Origin: Ilumatobacteraceae bacterium
Lineage (GTDB): Bacteria; Actinomycetota; Acidimicrobiia; Acidimicrobiales; Ilumatobacteraceae
Assembly: GCA_021299715.1 (NCBI GenBank)
Contig: JAJTEL010000002.1
Location: 372,001 to 436,000 of the forward strand
DNA: 64,000 bases
Reading direction: 5' to 3'
Part shown: piece after piece, positions 3,438 to 18,293 of the stretch
Position numbering within the stretch: position 1 is the stretch's first letter
Layout: every line of letters starts with the position of its first letter
Made by a program: the position numbers and the translations under genes
The notes under the pieces: generated by a model
Database searches by the model: none
The model's input: the letters and a program-made list of their open reading frames with translations, nothing else
Told to the model about the DNA's origin: nothing

Positions 3438-4169
3438 CCAGTTGTCTAATACAGCAGCGCAGCCCGCAGGGTCTTCAAGATGCACTGTGTGGCCCACGTT
3501 TGGGTGAATGTGCAGTTCTGAATTAGGCAGTAATGAATGAAGCCGTTCGGCGATGGCACTGAATTTTTTATCGTTCTGGCCGGCTATGACTAGAACGGGT
3601 ATTGCGAGTGTGTGTAGAGAATTCCACACTGGTTGTTGAGTGCCTGTACCAGCACGGCGCAAAGACGATGCCAGCCCGGACGCGCTATTCGTTAATCGCT
3701 CGTTGATACGCGCATTCTCGGTGCTCAGCCCAGCGAACATGGGATTTGCAAGCCATTCGGGAATGAAGGCTTCAACACCAGCGTCTTCAATGTGAGTGGC
3801 AAGGGCTTCATCACTTGCCACGCGTTGGCGGCGTTCCTCTTCGGTGTCTAAGCCTGCTGTGCCACTAATGAGAACAAGTCGGGTGAAGGCCTGTGGGTAG
3901 GCGATGGCTGCGGTGAGAGCCATGCGAGCCCCCATTGAATAGCCCACCAGAGTTTGTTGACTGACGAGTGCGACGAGTTCGTCTGCAGTTTCAGTAAGCG
4001 ATAGTGATAGGTGAGAGTTTCCGTGATCGGGCGCGTCAATCAATGTGGCGCACACAGGGGTTGTCATGTGGTGTAAGAGCGGTAGCCATGAATTGCCGGT
4101 TTGTGTAAAACCGTGAACAAAGGCGAGTGGCTCGCCAGTACCAACAACGCGAGTGGCAAGTGACGTCAC
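3417..4169 (-). CDS. menH: MenH-like alpha/beta hydrolase (SHCHC synthase)
   Basis: Alpha/beta-hydrolase-fold protein, probably 2-succinyl-6-hydroxy-2,4-cyclohexadiene-1-carboxylate synthase, the step after MenD. The oxyanion-region motif HGFTQTGNSW and the nucleophile elbow GYSMGARMAL (Ser78) resemble MenH. A catalytic Asp (IAGQNDKKF) and His (NVGHTVHLED) lie near the C terminus as expected. The GTG start at 4169 overlaps the stop of the upstream dsbA-like gene by 4 bases (GTGA), so the two are probably translated together. MenH function is inferred from fold plus position among men genes; a generic hydrolase cannot be excluded. Confidence 0.78.
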   Translation of the reverse strand: MTSLATRVVGTGEPLAFVHGFTQTGNSWLPLLHHMTTPVCATLIDAPDHGNSHLSLSLTETADELVALVSQQTLVGYSMGARMALTAAIAYPQAFTRLVLISGTAGLDTEEERRQRVASDEALATHIEDAGVEAFIPEWLANPMFAGLSTENARINERLTNSASGLASSLRRAGTGTQQPVWNSLHTLAIPVLVIAGQNDKKFSAIAERLHSLLPNSELHIHPNVGHTVHLEDPAGCAAVLDNWLQRTQR

Positions 4170-4834
4170 TTCGAGAGGACTCGTTCAAGCACTTGTACAA
4201 ACACGTCAACATCCTGGGCGCCGGGAATCATGTACTTGCCATCGATGACAAAGCAGGGGACCCCGGAAATTTCCATATCGAGCGCTTGTTGCAAATCGCT
4301 TCGTACATCGTCAATACCTTCCCCAGCCTCTAGCCATGTGCGTAGCGCTGAAGAATCAAGACCCACGTTTGACGCAGCCTGAAGAACCACATCAAGATCA
4401 CCAACGTCTTGCCCGTTGGTGAAGTACGCAAGAAGGAGGGCTTCTTTCATTTCGTTCTGTTTTGATGCTCCGTGAGTGGAGAGCACCCAATGAAGGGCGC
4501 GGTGGCACAAAATGGTGTTGGCCCGTAATGCGATATCCATGTTGAACTCAATGTTGTCGCTGGCGGCCACACGGGTGACGTGGTTCAAGATTTGCTCAGC
4601 GCGCTCTGTGCCGCCGAACTTCTTGGCATATGCCTCGACAACGGGCGTGGGAGCGCCCACGGGGGCGGTGGGGTCAAGCTGGTAGGCGCGAAATTCCACT
4701 TCTATGGGGTCTGTGACACCCTTCTCGCGAAGTTGTGCCACGGCGGTCTCAAAACGGCGCTTGCCTATAAAGCACCATGGACACACCACATCAGACCAAA
4801 TTTCAACCTTCACAGGTGACACGATAGGTGCCAT
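4166..4834 (-). CDS. DsbA/FrnE-like thiol oxidoreductase
   Basis: Thioredoxin-fold protein of the DsbA/FrnE (2-hydroxychromene-2-carboxylate isomerase-like) family. The redox motif CPWC is at residues 18-21, directly after the first strand (VKVEIWSDVV). The C-terminal thioredoxin cis-Pro region reads SGVPCFVIDGKYMIPGAQ. No signal peptide is visible, so it is probably cytoplasmic. The start is the ATG at 4834 (222 aa), preceded by GGAG five bases upstream; a longer reading would add 35 unsupported residues inside menD. This ATG and the menD ATG share the palindrome CATG on opposite strands. It is coupled to menH by a 4-base overlap. The substrate is unknown. Confidence 0.85.
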   Translation of the reverse strand: MAPIVSPVKVEIWSDVVCPWCFIGKRRFETAVAQLREKGVTDPIEVEFRAYQLDPTAPVGAPTPVVEAYAKKFGGTERAEQILNHVTRVAASDNIEFNMDIALRANTILCHRALHWVLSTHGASKQNEMKEALLLAYFTNGQDVGDLDVVLQAASNVGLDSSALRTWLEAGEGIDDVRSDLQQALDMEISGVPCFVIDGKYMIPGAQDVDVFVQVLERVLSK

Positions 4835-6515
4835 GAGTACTCCAGGCGACACCGCAGCCACTTTCTGTGCCACCTTGGTGGATGAATGGCTCTCCCTGGG
4901 CATCACGCAGGCCGTCATCGCACCGGGTAGTCGAAGCACTCCGTTGGCCGTGCAATTGGCTGCTCGTAAAGAATTCGCGGTTCATTTGTTTCATGACGAG
5001 CGAAGTGCGTCATTTGCTGCACTTGGCATTGGCGAAGCCACGGGAATACCAGCAATTCTGTTGTGCACTTCTGGAACTGCCGCAACTCATTTCCACGCAG
5101 CGGTTGTGGAAGCCCATCAGGCGAATGTTCCACTCATTGTGTGCACGGGCGATAGGCCTCCAGAGTTACGAGATGTTGGTGCTGCACAAACCATCGATCA
5201 AACCAACTTGTTTGGTTCTGCGGTTCGGTGGTTCCACGACCCCGGAGTGCCGTCAGATGACGCGTCACATACATGGCGTTCGCTGGCCGCGCGTACGGTG
5301 TCTTTGTCGTGCGGTGAACGACCCGGACCAGTTCATCTCAATCTTCCATTCCGTGAACCGTTATTGGGAACTGCATCGCCGTTACCCGACGGTCGTCACA
5401 ATGGGTGGTCAACGGTTGTGGCGGCGCATTCAGTGTCCGCTGAACTCGTTGCTTCTTTCGCAGCAGACATATCGGGCAAGCGCGGCATATTTATTGCTGG
5501 CCGTGGTGCAACGTCGTCGGTGCTGGAACTAGCACAACACATGGGTTGGCCCGTGTTTGCCGACCCTCGCAGCGGACTTCGAGTGTGTGAACCGAATGTT
5601 GTTGTGGCCTTCGACCCTATTTTGCGCAACAGCGGTTTTGCAGACTCTCATGTTCCCGATGTTGTGGTGCGTGTGGGCGACCCACCCGCATCGAAAGTGA
5701 CGGCACAGTGGGTTTCTCGTCATGGAATACCGGTTGTACAGGTGCAATCAACATCAATGGTGACAGATCCAGATCACTCCACGCAGCGAACATATATTGC
5801 GCCTATCGATGAATTGATGACTGCAGTGAAGGCCAATGTGTCTGCATCTGCGAGTAACTGGGCGGCGCAGTGGAATGCTGCAGAGACTGTTGCTCAGAAT
5901 GCCATCTCGCAGTGGACACAAAAAGAATGGTCCGAACCTTCTATTGCACGAACAGTCACCGATTCGCTGGCTGCAGGGTCGCATTTTGTTGTGTCGTCGT
6001 CAATGCCCATTCGGGATGTTGAATGGTTTGGAACAGTCACCCCGCATGTCACAGTTCATTCAAACAGGGGAACAAACGGCATTGACGGTGTCACGAGTAC
6101 CGCTGTAGGTGTTGCGCTAGCAACTCAACGGCCTGTCACCGTGCTCATCGGTGACGTTGCATGTCTTCATGATTCAAATGGTTTGTGGGGTCTTGCTCAA
6201 CGCAACGTCACCATGAAGATCGTGGTGACCAACAATGACGGCGGCGCCATTTTCTCGTTCCTGCCCCAAGCAACGCAGGTAGATGAAGCCACATTTGAGT
6301 TGTTGTACGGCACTCCGCACGGCGCTTCATTTGAACACCTTGCGGCAACACACGGCATTCGATACGAAAAGGCAACCCACCCTGAATCGCTTCTGGCCGC
6401 GTTGCATTCCGATGGAACATGCCTCATTGAAGTACCGCTAGTTCGTTCGGTGAATGTTGGGCAACACGACGCGTTAAATGCAGCGGTCGTAGCCGCTGTG
6501 TCTACGGTCGAATAA
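4833..6515 (+). CDS. menD: SEPHCHC synthase (MenD)
   Basis: Thiamine-diphosphate enzyme that joins isochorismate and 2-oxoglutarate in the first committed step of menaquinone synthesis. The N-terminal PYR domain has APGSRSTPLAVQLA and the conserved stretch GDRPPELRDVGAAQTIDQ. The C-terminal PP domain has SNRGTNGIDG and the ThDP/Mg2+ motif beginning GDVACLHDSNGL and ending VTNNDGGAIF. The ATG at 4833 (560 aa) fits the family N terminus; readings that start earlier run backwards through the divergent dsbA-like gene. The 3' end overlaps the convergent menF by 14 bases. MenF, on the opposite strand, would supply its isochorismate. Confidence 0.93.
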   Translation: MSTPGDTAATFCATLVDEWLSLGITQAVIAPGSRSTPLAVQLAARKEFAVHLFHDERSASFAALGIGEATGIPAILLCTSGTAATHFHAAVVEAHQANVPLIVCTGDRPPELRDVGAAQTIDQTNLFGSAVRWFHDPGVPSDDASHTWRSLAARTVSLSCGERPGPVHLNLPFREPLLGTASPLPDGRHNGWSTVVAAHSVSAELVASFAADISGKRGIFIAGRGATSSVLELAQHMGWPVFADPRSGLRVCEPNVVVAFDPILRNSGFADSHVPDVVVRVGDPPASKVTAQWVSRHGIPVVQVQSTSMVTDPDHSTQRTYIAPIDELMTAVKANVSASASNWAAQWNAAETVAQNAISQWTQKEWSEPSIARTVTDSLAAGSHFVVSSSMPIRDVEWFGTVTPHVTVHSNRGTNGIDGVTSTAVGVALATQRPVTVLIGDVACLHDSNGLWGLAQRNVTMKIVVTNNDGGAIFSFLPQATQVDEATFELLYGTPHGASFEHLAATHGIRYEKATHPESLLAALHSDGTCLIEVPLVRSVNVGQHDALNAAVVAAVSTVE

Positions 6516-14301: not shown

Positions 14302-16191
14302 CTACTTCTTTGCGGTGATATCGCGCAAGAACTGTTCTACTTCTGCGCGCTCTCGTGTGCGCGTCATTGGTGGGAGTGCAGCAATGAGGGTTCGCCAATA
14401 GTTCTTGGTTGCCAAACGATTATCGAGAACAGCAACGACACCCATGTCGTCGGCGGTGCGAATGAGGCGCCCTGCTGCTTGCGCAAGAGAAGTTGCTGCA
14501 ATGGGAAGGTCAATCAGTGTGAACGCTTTGTCTCGGCCAACGGCTTCGCGACGAGCTTCGAGAAGTGGGTCGTCGGGGCGAGGGAACGGAAGTTTGTCGA
14601 GAATCACCAGAGACAACGTACGGCCAGGCAGGTCTACCCCTTGGAAAAAAGACTGAGACGCAAAGATGCACGCGTGTTCGTCTTCCATGAACATCTCAAT
14701 GATGCGCTGACGTGAATAATCGGATGGGCTGAGAATGGGGAAAGGAACGCGTTGACGAAGGGCTTCGGTGGCTTCATTAAGCGCTTTGTTGCTGGTGAAG
14801 AGCGCAAGCGTTCGTCCGCCTGCCGCAGTGATGAGTGACTCGAGTTCATCGTGCACAAATGGTGTGAACTGAGGAGAGTTGCGGTCTGGGAAGTTGGGCG
14901 AGCAATACAAGCGGGAGTTGCGCTCGTAGTCGAAGGGTGAATCGACGGTGAGTACTTCGGTGCCTTCGAGGGGTAGTCCTACGCGCTCTGGCATGGCAGA
15001 CGGAACCGTGGCGCTTGTGAGAATTGCGACATGTGAGTCCCACACGTTTTTCTGTAAGACATCGCCAACATGAAGTGGGCTGAGGCGGAGAGATGGGCGC
15101 TCTGGTGACCCTTCGACATAGGCGACGTATCCCGTAAATGTGCCCAACGCAAGATCGAGTGACTCGACCAGACGAGCTCCTTGCGTTTGTGCTCGATAAA
15201 TACGTTGTTGCGTTGCTTCGTTATCTGTTTTTACGTCTCGCAGTGCACTGATGATGGTGTTCACTTCAATGCGCACAAGTGACAAGGTCTCCAAAATATT
15301 TGAAGGAAGTGGTGAAGGGAGTCGCTGTCCTGCAAAAGGAGAAATAGTTCCGGAGAACCGTAAGCCGAACTCTTCGAGTGAATTGGTGAGTGTGGGGTCG
15401 GCCATGACTTTTCGCACAGATGATGCAAAGGAAGTGATTCGCCCATTGGACAACATTGTTCCGACAGTGTCGCTGAGAACAGCTTCTATTTGGTGAGCCT
15501 CGTCAAAGATAACGACGTCGTGTTCGGGAAGAATGTTGCCGCCACTGGCGATGTGGGTTCCGTACAAATGGATGTTGACCACCACCACATCTGCTGCCAG
15601 AGCCGCATCACGCGCACGCTCTGCGAAACAGTCGGCGCCGACCGGACACTTATTGCGACCTGGGCATTCGTCGACCGCGACACTGACCGCCTGTCGCGCT
15701 TTTTCGGATGGCATACGCGCCAGTTCTTCGAAGTCGCCAGTGGATGTTTTCTTGGCCCAGTCGACAAGCGTGTCAATTTCCTTGGCAACTCGGTCGGTTG
15801 TTTCTTCGAATTCAAGTTGGCCGCTGGTGTCTTTACGTTCACGAACACGCTGAAGGCAGATGTAGTTGCTGCGACCCTTTACCACTGCCCAAGAAAAGTC
15901 GACGCCGAGATGCTTCTGAAGTAAAGGAAGGTCGTTGCGATTTAGTTGGTCTTGAAGAGCTTTTGTTGCTGTGGCAACAACAGTCTTCTTTCCGTTCAAA
16001 ATTGCCGGAACTAAGTATCCGAGAGACTTGCCAGTTCCGGTTCCGGCCTGAATGATTGCGTTACGACCAGATGCAAGTGATTCTGCAATGGCATGCGACA
16101 TATCTATTTGGCCTTGGCGTTCCTCGGAACCTTCGAAAGTTGCGGTGACGCGACGCAGTGCTTCAATTGCTTCGTTACCAGCCCGCGACAT
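14302..16191 (-). CDS. dinG: DinG/XPD-type ATP-dependent DNA helicase
   Basis: Superfamily 2 helicase of the iron-sulfur DinG/YoaA/XPD group, probably acting on DNA repair or replication intermediates. Walker A is AGTGTGKSLGYLVPA (about residue 43 on), and the DEAH box is VVIFDEAHQIEAVL. Between them four cysteines (DECPGRNKCPVGADCFAERA and the preceding region) fit the Fe-S cluster position. C-terminal helicase motifs include LALFTSNKALNEAT, ASQSFFQGVDLPG and QAAGRLIRTADDMG. It lacks the exonuclease domain found in some Gram-positive DinG proteins. It begins 2 bases after the uppS stop on the same strand, so the two are probably cotranscribed. Confidence 0.88.
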   Translation of the reverse strand: MSRAGNEAIEALRRVTATFEGSEERQGQIDMSHAIAESLASGRNAIIQAGTGTGKSLGYLVPAILNGKKTVVATATKALQDQLNRNDLPLLQKHLGVDFSWAVVKGRSNYICLQRVRERKDTSGQLEFEETTDRVAKEIDTLVDWAKKTSTGDFEELARMPSEKARQAVSVAVDECPGRNKCPVGADCFAERARDAALAADVVVVNIHLYGTHIASGGNILPEHDVVIFDEAHQIEAVLSDTVGTMLSNGRITSFASSVRKVMADPTLTNSLEEFGLRFSGTISPFAGQRLPSPLPSNILETLSLVRIEVNTIISALRDVKTDNEATQQRIYRAQTQGARLVESLDLALGTFTGYVAYVEGSPERPSLRLSPLHVGDVLQKNVWDSHVAILTSATVPSAMPERVGLPLEGTEVLTVDSPFDYERNSRLYCSPNFPDRNSPQFTPFVHDELESLITAAGGRTLALFTSNKALNEATEALRQRVPFPILSPSDYSRQRIIEMFMEDEHACIFASQSFFQGVDLPGRTLSLVILDKLPFPRPDDPLLEARREAVGRDKAFTLIDLPIAATSLAQAAGRLIRTADDMGVVAVLDNRLATKNYWRTLIAALPPMTRTRERAEVEQFLRDITAKK

Positions 16192-16193
16192 GA

Positions 16194-16877
16194 CTATGCG
16201 TAGTGCCCACTGGCGAGTGCAAGTGCTTCGTCGAGTTGATTTTTATCGAAGTCGGGCCAGGTGCGTTCTGTGAAGAAGACACGCGCACCAGTGATTTGCC
16301 AGAGTAGGAAATTTGAGATTCGTGCTTCGCCGGACGTGCGCACCAGGACATCGACATGGGGCAACGTGGGGTCGTACAAATTTTGGGTGATAGATGCCGC
16401 ACTGACGGGCCCCGCCGCCATTGCGCGCTGAGCAGCCCGTACCAGTTCGGCGCGGCTGCCGTAATCGAACGCAATGGTGACTGTGAGGCCCGTGTTGTCT
16501 TGAGTGTCGGAAATTGCCTTGGCAATGGCCTTTTGCACGTAGACAGGAGTGCGAGAGCCTTTTTCGTTGAATGGACGACCTATCCAGCGTGTGCGCGCAT
16601 TTCGAGAGTTCATTTCTTCGGTACGAGCAAACAGGCGGCGATGTAATGACAGTATGTGGCGAACTTCGGTTCGAGGGCGTACCCAGTTTTCGGTGGAGAA
16701 CCCAAACGCTGTCAGCCAACCCACGGGACGATCGGCGGAGGCGCGAACGATGTCGGCCAAGGCTGCTTCGCCTGCGGTGTGCCCTTCGGTGCGCGGCAAC
16801 CCGCGGCGACTTGCCCATCGGCCATTGCCGTCCATGATGCACGCAACGTGAAGGCGCTGAGGGTTGGTTGAACTCAT
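16194..16877 (-). CDS. uppS: Catalytic cis-prenyltransferase (UppS-like) lacking C-terminal RxG motif
   Basis: Isoprenyl (undecaprenyl or decaprenyl) diphosphate synthase making the lipid carrier for cell-wall sugars. Active-site parts are present: MDGNGRW with the catalytic Asp at residue 16, EGHTAG (His33), FGFSTENW (58-65) and VRTSGEARISNFLLWQ (179-194). The end is abnormal. Where UppS normally has AYAEL with a metal-binding Glu six residues after the Trp, this protein has ITGARVFF with Arg199. After WPDFDKNQLDEALALASGHYA it simply stops, with no RRxRRFGG tail. The ATG at 16877 (227 aa) is clear. It is divergent from an inactive-looking paralogue that keeps exactly these lost features, so the two probably form a heteromer (inference). 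It is followed by dinG. Confidence 0.9.
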   Translation of the reverse strand: MSSTNPQRLHVACIMDGNGRWASRRGLPRTEGHTAGEAALADIVRASADRPVGWLTAFGFSTENWVRPRTEVRHILSLHRRLFARTEEMNSRNARTRWIGRPFNEKGSRTPVYVQKAIAKAISDTQDNTGLTVTIAFDYGSRAELVRAAQRAMAAGPVSAASITQNLYDPTLPHVDVLVRTSGEARISNFLLWQITGARVFFTERTWPDFDKNQLDEALALASGHYA

Positions 16878-16956
16878 GGTGTTGACCACCCTAGTAAGGG
16901 GGAGCGTCTTCTCGTATGCAAGCGACTCAGCCAGCGTGGCGTGGGAGACTAGATGT

Positions 16957-17577
16957 ATGCCGAAGTCGTCCACGCTTACCCAGCCCGGATTGGGCCATGT
17001 GGTTGTTGCGGGAGGCACTCCTGCTGAATGGTTGGAAATGTCGGCGGAAAAGTGGGACGAAAGGCTTCGCGCTGTGGCACGAGCAGCTGCCGCAGAGGGC
17101 GCACATTGGGTGACTGTCGTACCTCATCACGGTCCTGATTTTTCAGCAGAAGAGTTAAGCGCGTATGCACATCTCATGACATCGGTAAACAAAGTTGCTC
17201 CGGTGTCTGTTGCCCACGGTTCTCGTTATGTGTGGCAGCGGGATGCATCGCTGCACGTCATTGTGGATCCCATGGCGAGCGGACACAATCGATTTGCTGC
17301 AACTGTTGAAGGCCTCCGATCTGCCGGAGTCGCCCCTGAATCGCTTAATGAAGAAATGTTGTCTCAAGCAATTTTGGCTCCGGCAACGGAAGAACCTGAC
17401 TTGGTGGTTGTGCTTGGGCCGGCCGACCGAATTCCTGAATCCATGGTGTGGGAACTGGCATACAGCGAATTGGTGTTTATTGATTTGGAATGGGAAAAGT
17501 TTGAGTCCAGCCATCTGGAACTTGCCATCGATGACTTCAACAGACGACATCGTCGATTTGGCGGGCTTGATTCGTGA
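16957..17577 (+). CDS. NgBR-like non-catalytic cis-prenyltransferase subunit (predicted)
   Basis: Divergent homologue of UppS, 206 aa. The N terminus GHVVVAGGTPAEW aligns with HVACIMDGNGRW of the neighbouring enzyme, but the catalytic Asp is Gly20 and the P-loop residues are gone. FSTENW is replaced by VVPHHG, and RTSGE by VLGPAD. By contrast the C terminus is canonical: ELAYSELVFIDLEW keeps the metal-site Glu (Glu171), and FNRRHRRFGG supplies the RxG motif (R200-F-G202). The segment PDLVVVLGPAD resembles human NgBR and yeast Nus1 as I remember them. The start is ATG 16957 with GGGAG 9 bases upstream. The stop overlaps recO by 4 bases (GTGA). Predicted regulatory partner of the divergent uppS product; function inferred. 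Confidence 0.75.
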   Translation: MPKSSTLTQPGLGHVVVAGGTPAEWLEMSAEKWDERLRAVARAAAAEGAHWVTVVPHHGPDFSAEELSAYAHLMTSVNKVAPVSVAHGSRYVWQRDASLHVIVDPMASGHNRFAATVEGLRSAGVAPESLNEEMLSQAILAPATEEPDLVVVLGPADRIPESMVWELAYSELVFIDLEWEKFESSHLELAIDDFNRRHRRFGGLDS

Positions 17578-18293
17578 GTACGTATCGCGACCACGCCATT
17601 GTGCTGGGGTCCCATAAATTTGGCGAAGCAGATCGTGTTGTGGTGTTGCTGTCACAAACTCACGGAAAAATTCGGGCTGTGGCAAAGGGTGTTCGAAAGA
17701 CCAAGTCATCAATTGGTGCTCGGTTGGAGCCAATGAGTCACGTTGATTTGTCTCTGCGTTCAGGTCGAGAACTTGACACCGTCGACCAAGTAAGGCTCAT
17801 TCATCCCCACCAGAATTTGCGTGACGATTTTGATCGACTTCGTCAAGGGTTAGCAATGGTGGAGGCCGTCAACAAGGTGACCCCCGACAAAGACCCAGTG
17901 CCACATTTGTATGAATTGTTGTCTCGTGCATTGCACGCACTGAATGAACGCAATTCGCCTCTGATGCTTGCAGCATTCTTCTGGCGTCTCATCTCAATTG
18001 AAGGACAAACTCCTCAACTTGACGAGTGCGTGGGGTGTGGTGAGTCAGGGGAGTTATCAACATTCGATGTTGTGGAAGGGGGCGCACATTGCGCGTCCTG
18101 TGGTTCAGGGCTTCCTGTGTCATCGCGTGCTCTCAGCATTCTTCGAGACATCTTGGGTGGTCGAATGAACGACGCACTCGCCCTAGAGGAGTCACCTGCA
18201 GTCATCGAGGTGAACAATTTGGCCATGGAAGCCATGGAAGCTCACCTAGAAAGACGATTGAAGAGCCTCGGTGTGTTTGACCGCCACTTGTAG
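17574..18293 (+). CDS. recO: DNA repair protein RecO
   Basis: Recombination mediator of the RecFOR pathway that loads RecA on gaps. The N-terminal OB fold begins YRDHAIVLGSHKFGEADRVV and includes GKIRAVAKGVRKTKSSIG (about residues 30-47). A helical domain follows, with a zinc motif CVGCGESGEL and CASCG at about 146-170. Length 239 aa is normal. The GTG start overlaps the stop of the NgBR-like gene by 4 bases. In mycobacteria recO and uppS are adjacent, so the upstream gene sits in the usual uppS place. The stop codon TAG is also the first part of a TAGGCT box before glyS. Confidence 0.92.
   Translation: MSTYRDHAIVLGSHKFGEADRVVVLLSQTHGKIRAVAKGVRKTKSSIGARLEPMSHVDLSLRSGRELDTVDQVRLIHPHQNLRDDFDRLRQGLAMVEAVNKVTPDKDPVPHLYELLSRALHALNERNSPLMLAAFFWRLISIEGQTPQLDECVGCGESGELSTFDVVEGGAHCASCGSGLPVSSRALSILRDILGGRMNDALALEESPAVIEVNNLAMEAMEAHLERRLKSLGVFDRHL

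Follow-up and report, generated by a model that had tools for sequence, protein, structure and literature searches.

Two divergent genes in a bacterial family encode a putative heteromeric cis-prenyltransferase resembling DHDDS/NgBR

We consider two divergent genes in a window of 64,000 nucleotides, the whole stretch of Ilumatobacteraceae DNA analysed here, whose products keep complementary parts of one enzyme. From the residues that each protein retains and loses, together with the distribution of the two genes, their gene order and the selection on them, we put at roughly 85% the probability that the pair forms a cis-prenyltransferase that is an obligate heteromer and, in these bacteria, the sole synthase of undecaprenyl (or decaprenyl) diphosphate. 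In such an enzyme the minus-strand subunit (catalytic-type in what follows) would bind the allylic and homoallylic diphosphates and Mg2+ through Asp16, the P-loop Arg, FSTENW and RTSGE, and would hold the chain-length tunnel. The partner, which would be without an active site, would dimerise with the catalytic subunit through the usual UppS interface, and its C-terminal RRFGG, probably together with Glu171, would reach across and complete the single active site, the role that NgBR has for DHDDS. We infer that the two proteins associate physically, are active only together and share one active site per dimer, and likewise the product and its chain length. In a bacterial family of fresh and marine waters, the synthase of the lipid carrier for the cell wall seems to have been divided into two dependent halves, one bearing the catalytic site and the other the tail that the first lacks; animals and yeast made a similar division in the related enzyme of protein glycosylation.

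The catalytic-type gene, a UppS homologue with a complete cis active site, occupies 16194..16877 on the minus strand (227 aa, ATG at 16877), and the partner gene, a degenerate UppS homologue of NgBR-like make-up, occupies 16957..17577 on the plus strand (206 aa). The 79 bp between the two divergent ATG starts (16878..16956) are presumably the divergent promoter region; a sigma-70 promoter scan of this gap gave no match. Directly downstream of the catalytic-type gene, after 2 bases and on the same strand, lies a gene (14302..16191, minus strand) that synteny points to as a DinG/YoaA-family helicase; its product falls below the NCBIfam cut-offs, with YoaA as the best model (500.6 bits). On the other side, recO (17574..18293, plus strand, GTG start), likewise placed by synteny, overlaps the stop of the partner by 4 bases.

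The initial annotation had drawn attention to this pair, and re-reading both proteins confirms its coordinates and all the residues that it named; the split is no chance event, being seen again in related sequences, 110 of the catalytic type and 116 of the partner, all distinct. By sequence and alignment, the catalytic Asp16 (E. coli D26; codon 16830..16832, minus strand) stands in MDGNGRW, followed by FSTENW, RTSGE and then LLWQITGARVFF, in which Arg199 (16281..16283, minus strand) replaces the Glu found in UppS (E. coli E213). The C-terminus, LDEALALASGHYA, is without an RxG motif and stops right behind the last helix. The partner reads VAGGTPAEW, with Gly20 (17014..17016, plus strand) replacing the catalytic Asp, and its P-loop, FSTENW and RTSGE are all gone. 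It retains WELAYSELVF with Glu171 (17467..17469, plus strand) at the E. coli E213 position, and RRHRRFGG, in which Arg200-Phe-Gly202 (17554..17562, plus strand) form the RxG motif.

Both proteins belong to PF01255 by Pfam gathering score and predicted fold. The catalytic-type protein matches positions 1-208 of 219 with 206.6 bits, and the partner positions 138-219, the C-terminal part only, with 52 bits (cut-off 27 in both cases). Against TIGR00055, the model of the homodimeric UppS, the catalytic-type protein scores 189.3 bits, above the curated cut-off of 109.55, and the partner 48.5 bits, far under it. The predicted structure of the catalytic-type protein is a UppS fold that misses only the tail. 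An assembly or frameshift artefact was considered as a source of the split and is ruled out by its recurrence in more than 100 distinct sequences and in single-contig genomes.

Is the complementary loss of residues a property of the whole group? The relatives come from species genomes and from a scan of public contigs (the best 80 of 399 partner relatives). Pieces below 100 bits were removed before residues were counted, and 7 short catalytic-type proteins and 4 short partners were dropped; the alignment thus holds 110 of 117 distinct catalytic-type proteins (at least 200 aa) and 116 of 120 distinct partners (at least 140 aa). As a reference we use 30 normal UppS, mostly of other families of the order plus that of E. 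coli, whose numbering is followed. Among the catalytic-type proteins D26, N28 and R30 are present in all 109 that have letters there, and R39, H43, S71, E73, N74, W75, R77, R194, E198, R200 and S202 in all 110. None of the 110 has R242-x-G244 or Y211. E213 survives in 7, Lys, Ala, Arg, His and others standing in its place elsewhere, and these 7 proteins are still without Tyr211 and without the tail. The catalytic-type chains end 10-22 residues past position 226, those of normal UppS 20-44.

The partners present the reverse image. D26 occurs in 0 of 115, with Gly in every one; R194 is gone in 116 of 116, and S202 is changed to Pro in 115 of 116. Y211 and E213 are kept by all 116, and R239, R241, R242, F243 and G244 by all 115 that are readable. 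The spacing from E213 to R242 is 29 residues in 115 of 115 partners and in 30 of 30 normal UppS. By this reading of the alignment the pair has the design of a heteromer, a putative catalytic subunit without RxG beside a putative non-catalytic subunit with it. A mutual-exclusion test over all near-invariant UppS columns gives p = 0.14, falling to 0.023 when four gap columns are dropped; the blanket test is weak because both proteins also retain structural residues, and the complementarity argument therefore rests on residues of known role. Remnants of a tail were sought past the catalytic-type stop, and an RxG string within 30 codons was found in 24 of 112 translated sequences; we take these as chance, including one (L048) where RRFG lies behind the stop in a frame overlapping the helicase gene.

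For E. coli UppS we take the Glu of AYAEL to bind the metal. The initial annotation, which called this residue metal-binding, was right about its position and its loss, and the label itself has to be qualified, since in MtDPPS with substrate analogues the Mg2+ is held by Asp76, the phosphates and two waters, as described in the available part of the structural account (PMC6450523). The same part places the RxG Arg292 of MtDPPS in the counter-subunit, from where it contacts Asp76 and Mg-bound waters (PMC6450523). For the human enzyme, the portion at hand describes the RxG-bearing C-terminus of NgBR as crossing the interface into the DHDDS site, in which Asp34 holds Mg2+ (PMC7573591). Since RxG works in trans in both MtDPPS and DHDDS/NgBR, a catalytic-type subunit would need just what the partner retains.

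We turn to the distribution of the two genes. The family survey covers 115 genomes, each at least 85% complete, from 24 genera, searched with PF01255 and with a partner profile. Both genes, with no self-sufficient enzyme alongside, occur in 108 of the 115, and the pair is found in 22 of the 24 genera. Two PF01255 matches are seen in 105 family genomes and three in 3; the catalytic gene is in pieces over two contigs in G007 and G072, and in G132 a complete catalytic gene lies on one contig, a second contig having a partial copy next to the partner. The partner profile reaches at least 93 bits in 110 of the 115 genomes, among them G118, whose partner has an in-frame TAG. It scores 82.5 bits in G075, where the partner contains a TAG and unreadable letters and the catalytic gene adjoins it, finds no match in G128, and gives 87.7, 63.9 and 61.6 bits with the normal UppS of G119, G150 and G151. 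The partner stands alone in G070 and G080, and the catalytic gene in G128, each cut by a contig end. G119, G150 and G151, from two genera, have a single normal full-length UppS and are without the pair; no uninterrupted match to PF01255 positions 1-219 was found in the other 112 family genomes.

The initial annotation had made its reading depend on the absence of a second complete UppS. None is present in the window's own genome (92.8% complete), where PF01255 matches these two proteins and no other, nor in the single-contig family genomes G104, G108 and G110, which have exactly the pair and no third PF01255 protein. These single-contig genomes carry the argument for absence of a normal UppS, because drafts free of any match exist: 9 of the 28 genomes re-examined with PF01255 have none, one of them rated 100% complete. 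The nine (G413, G442, G175, G176, G201, G239, G264, G271 and G290) are Acidimicrobiia genomes, all at least 85% complete, and draft gaps are the likely reason. Within another draw that includes 37 family genomes, with completeness down to 62%, 5 genomes (63-84% complete) are without a match. MraY and UppP were found in the genome, so the cell needs an undecaprenyl diphosphate synthase, and the pair is the only PF01255 candidate found.

Outside the family the picture is that of one gene. All 24 genomes sampled from the order's other families have a single full-length UppS, and over 394 genomes of the class the partner profile exceeds 100 bits in family genomes only, some family partners scoring lower. 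The co-occurrence for which a survey of Acidimicrobiia had been proposed thus holds in one family (22 of 24 genera) and does not extend to the sampled class in general. Fourteen non-family genomes among the 28 re-examined have two PF01255 matches; as further heteromers they are ruled out, both proteins being full length in each, and 20 proteins from 10 of them have the Glu in 20 of 20 and RxG in 19, one protein of G162 reading R-T-Y-G. In a sample of the phylum PF01255 is matched in 109 of 110 genomes, in two of which (G556, G585) the UppS is in two pieces, and the pair occurs in 4, all four of the window's family. As a separate observation, two genomes of the same phylum (G571 and G591, genus g280) have a full-length UppS and an extra PF01255 protein matching positions 78-219 only, in an open frame of some 270 aa; this divergent paralogue is a possible other partner. 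Several of the pair-carrying MAG records bear the names Bifidobacterium breve, Ferrithrix thermotolerans or Acidobacteria in their titles, which clash with the genes present; such bins have probably been mislabelled.

The two genes lie on opposite strands, in different presumed operons, which we count against the heteromer; all 147 loci that contain the two (some genomes counted twice) show this orientation. The median distance between the starts of the aligned parts is 55 bp, and in five loci the two genes are 351 to 2266 bp apart. In L120 a 695-aa ORF (3831-5918), with many hydrophobic stretches, lies between the two genes and has no Pfam match at E 0.001; L100 has a similar gap. In L143 the intervening ORF (4782-5945, start uncertain) has a DinB superfamily match of 36.2 bits, and L138 has a similar gap. 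When the signal of glyS, recO and the helicase is removed, the distance correlation between partner and catalytic-type proteins is 0.447 (77 loci; 0 of 500 permutations), and the same test gives 0.155 for partner and recO, 0.139 for partner and helicase, and 0.383 for catalytic-type protein and recO. Given the last value the signal is not specific, and its support for coupling is weak.

Both genes are under purifying selection. The catalytic-type gene has dN/dS values of 0.014-0.173 in 15 genome pairs, and the partner gives 0.039-0.282 (14 values); some dS are above 1, and a few frames include codons ahead of the start. One could still regard the partner as a decaying duplicate, pointing to its mean column identity of 46%, its long branches and the in-frame stop in two drafts (G118, and G075, which also has unreadable letters). 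We give this hardly any credence, because its low dN/dS and its 25 invariant columns among 79 sequences contradict a pseudogene, all 79 sequences match PF01255, and the gene is retained in 22 genera.

It is also conceivable that the catalytic-type protein is a homodimer active alone despite lacking RxG, the partner being a regulator or having some other role. There is precedent in Methanosarcina mazei MM_0014, reported in the accessible part of PMC8131916 as an active homodimer without RxG that makes C25-40 products, and in human DHDDS, which alone has some, poor activity according to the part available (PMC7573591); the predicted UppS fold of the catalytic-type protein, missing only the tail, would suit such an enzyme, and we count the Glu213 still found in 7 of 110 against the heteromer. 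We nevertheless hold a self-sufficient homodimer to be unlikely: a partner under other selection is not expected to retain Y211, E213, R239, R241, R242 and G244 at UppS spacing in 115 of 115 readable sequences while giving up the catalytic residues, the pairing is near-universal across 22 genera, and C25-40 is short for a cell-wall carrier. A heteromer that makes a short Z-prenyl diphosphate or another product, with an unrelated enzyme making the cell-wall carrier, seems to us very improbable. The data do not reveal chain length, and one of the two full-length PF01255 proteins in the 14 other Acidimicrobiia genomes may be a short-chain enzyme; against this stand the three single-contig genomes with no third PF01255 protein, the presence of MraY and UppP, and the statement, in the excerpt available, that bacterial cell-wall carriers are products of the same enzyme family (PMC7839719). 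A heteromeric synthase of the cell-wall carrier is the reading that we prefer.

How might such a pair have come about? In the loci of the order, recO follows uppS on the same strand in 22 of 24, with nothing matching between them in 21, and a DinG-family helicase gene diverges from uppS in 6 of 24 (within the 1.5 kb seen). The usual order in the family is era+ helicase- catalytic- / partner+ recO+ glyS+. As recO comes after uppS in the order and after the partner in the family, the partner stands at the ancestral uppS site and the catalytic gene is the inverted newcomer. G119, of the same family, has helicase- / UppS+ recO+ (L154, 2803-6491), a one-gene locus that shows, in an extant lineage, the condition which preceded the split. 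In G150 and G151 (genus g48; L155, 5056-5826, and L206/L207) the arrangement is helicase- / recO+ with nothing between; their UppS is at another site, beside a polyprenyl synthetase gene, groups with the UppS of two other families (support 100/99), and was probably acquired by transfer. A tree of recO, glyS and the helicase, rooted on other families, shows the window's family as one clade, G119 together with G150/G151 (SH-aLRT 97), and a three-way polytomy at the family base. A single origin of the pair after the lineage of G119, G150 and G151 split off fits these data, which do not prove it.

In a tree of the C-terminal part (73 columns, no NgBR included) the partner falls inside the UppS of the order (SH-aLRT 81-93) on a long branch, none of its inner branches below the outer one being starred; this position agrees with its locus at the ancestral uppS site. 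The catalytic-type proteins form one clade (100/100) whose branch is long and whose placement is uncertain, and their gene may be either a duplicate or an import. Other Acidimicrobiia have a second UppS paralogue; descent from it was considered and is unsupported, as the catalytic-type proteins join neither paralogue. The profile comparison with the NgBR family, which the initial annotation had proposed, does connect the partner with solved NUS1/NgBR chains (E 2.5e-6 to 3.8e-5, positions 40-198 of 202), and places it closer to bacterial UppS (2.2e-20, against 2.5e-6 for NUS1). Because the nearest relatives of the partner are UppS and its locus is the ancestral uppS site, its likeness to NgBR/Nus1 is, as far as sequence can tell, most likely convergent. 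We think it likely, taking these observations together, that the family arrived convergently at a DHDDS/NgBR design in its sole essential carrier synthase: the inherited uppS would have become non-catalytic, and an inverted neighbouring UppS, duplicated or incoming, would have kept catalysis and lost the tail, the sister lineage keeping one gene.

Bacteria cannot make peptidoglycan without UppS, which the part of the review at hand counts as a homodimer in them (PMC7839719); a bacterial heteromer, if true, breaks this rule. It would also mean that this division of labour, whose advantage in eukaryotes is not understood, arose independently one more time. A close sister lineage that keeps a single gene within the same gene order, and a small pair without a membrane anchor, are useful material, and with such material at hand why the enzyme was split becomes a directly testable question.

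Compared with the homodimeric UppS (E. coli IspU, M. tuberculosis Rv2361c), the pair has PF01255, the fold and the active-site residues of the catalytic-type protein in common. The homodimers have both halves on each chain, their RxG also acting in trans (PMC6450523, available part), and here the halves are on two genes. The accessible text of one review counts the cis-prenyltransferases of bacteria as homodimers and gives heteromers for eukaryotes (PMC7839719), that of a 2025 plant review describes homodimers or heterodimers and mentions no bacterial heteromer (PMC13247534), and our search of titles and abstracts in the open-access literature found no bacterial heteromeric cis-prenyltransferase. 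M. mazei MM_0014 is without RxG like the catalytic-type protein, but it is a homodimer with a TLGG tail, and no degenerate partner is mentioned in the part of the paper available (PMC8131916). For the methanogen pair mentioned in the initial annotation as an archaeal precedent, a matching case is the MM_0618/MM_1083 heteromer of the same organism, a prokaryotic enzyme with C45-50 products (PMC8131916, in part), which we liken to the present pair by its description.

The closest likeness is to human DHDDS/NgBR (NUS1) and yeast Rer2/Nus1, in which, as proposed here, an active-site subunit without RxG is joined by a non-catalytic subunit that completes the site. This eukaryotic precedent stands, since the RxG tail of NgBR enters the DHDDS site (PMC7573591, available part). 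The human pair even has the same exchange of the Glu, with Cys in DHDDS (LLWQTSHSCLVF) and the Glu kept in NUS1 (FLPWHIRLTEIVSL), which ends in EQRLGK with its RLG. There are differences as well. The bacterial pair presumably makes C50-55 products and not long dolichols, and NgBR/Nus1 has an N-terminal membrane anchor (PMC7573591, as excerpted) for which the bacterial partner has no room, only about 13 residues preceding its first strand. What is new here is a pair that would work like DHDDS/NgBR, but with a partner that most likely arose from the bacteria's own UppS.
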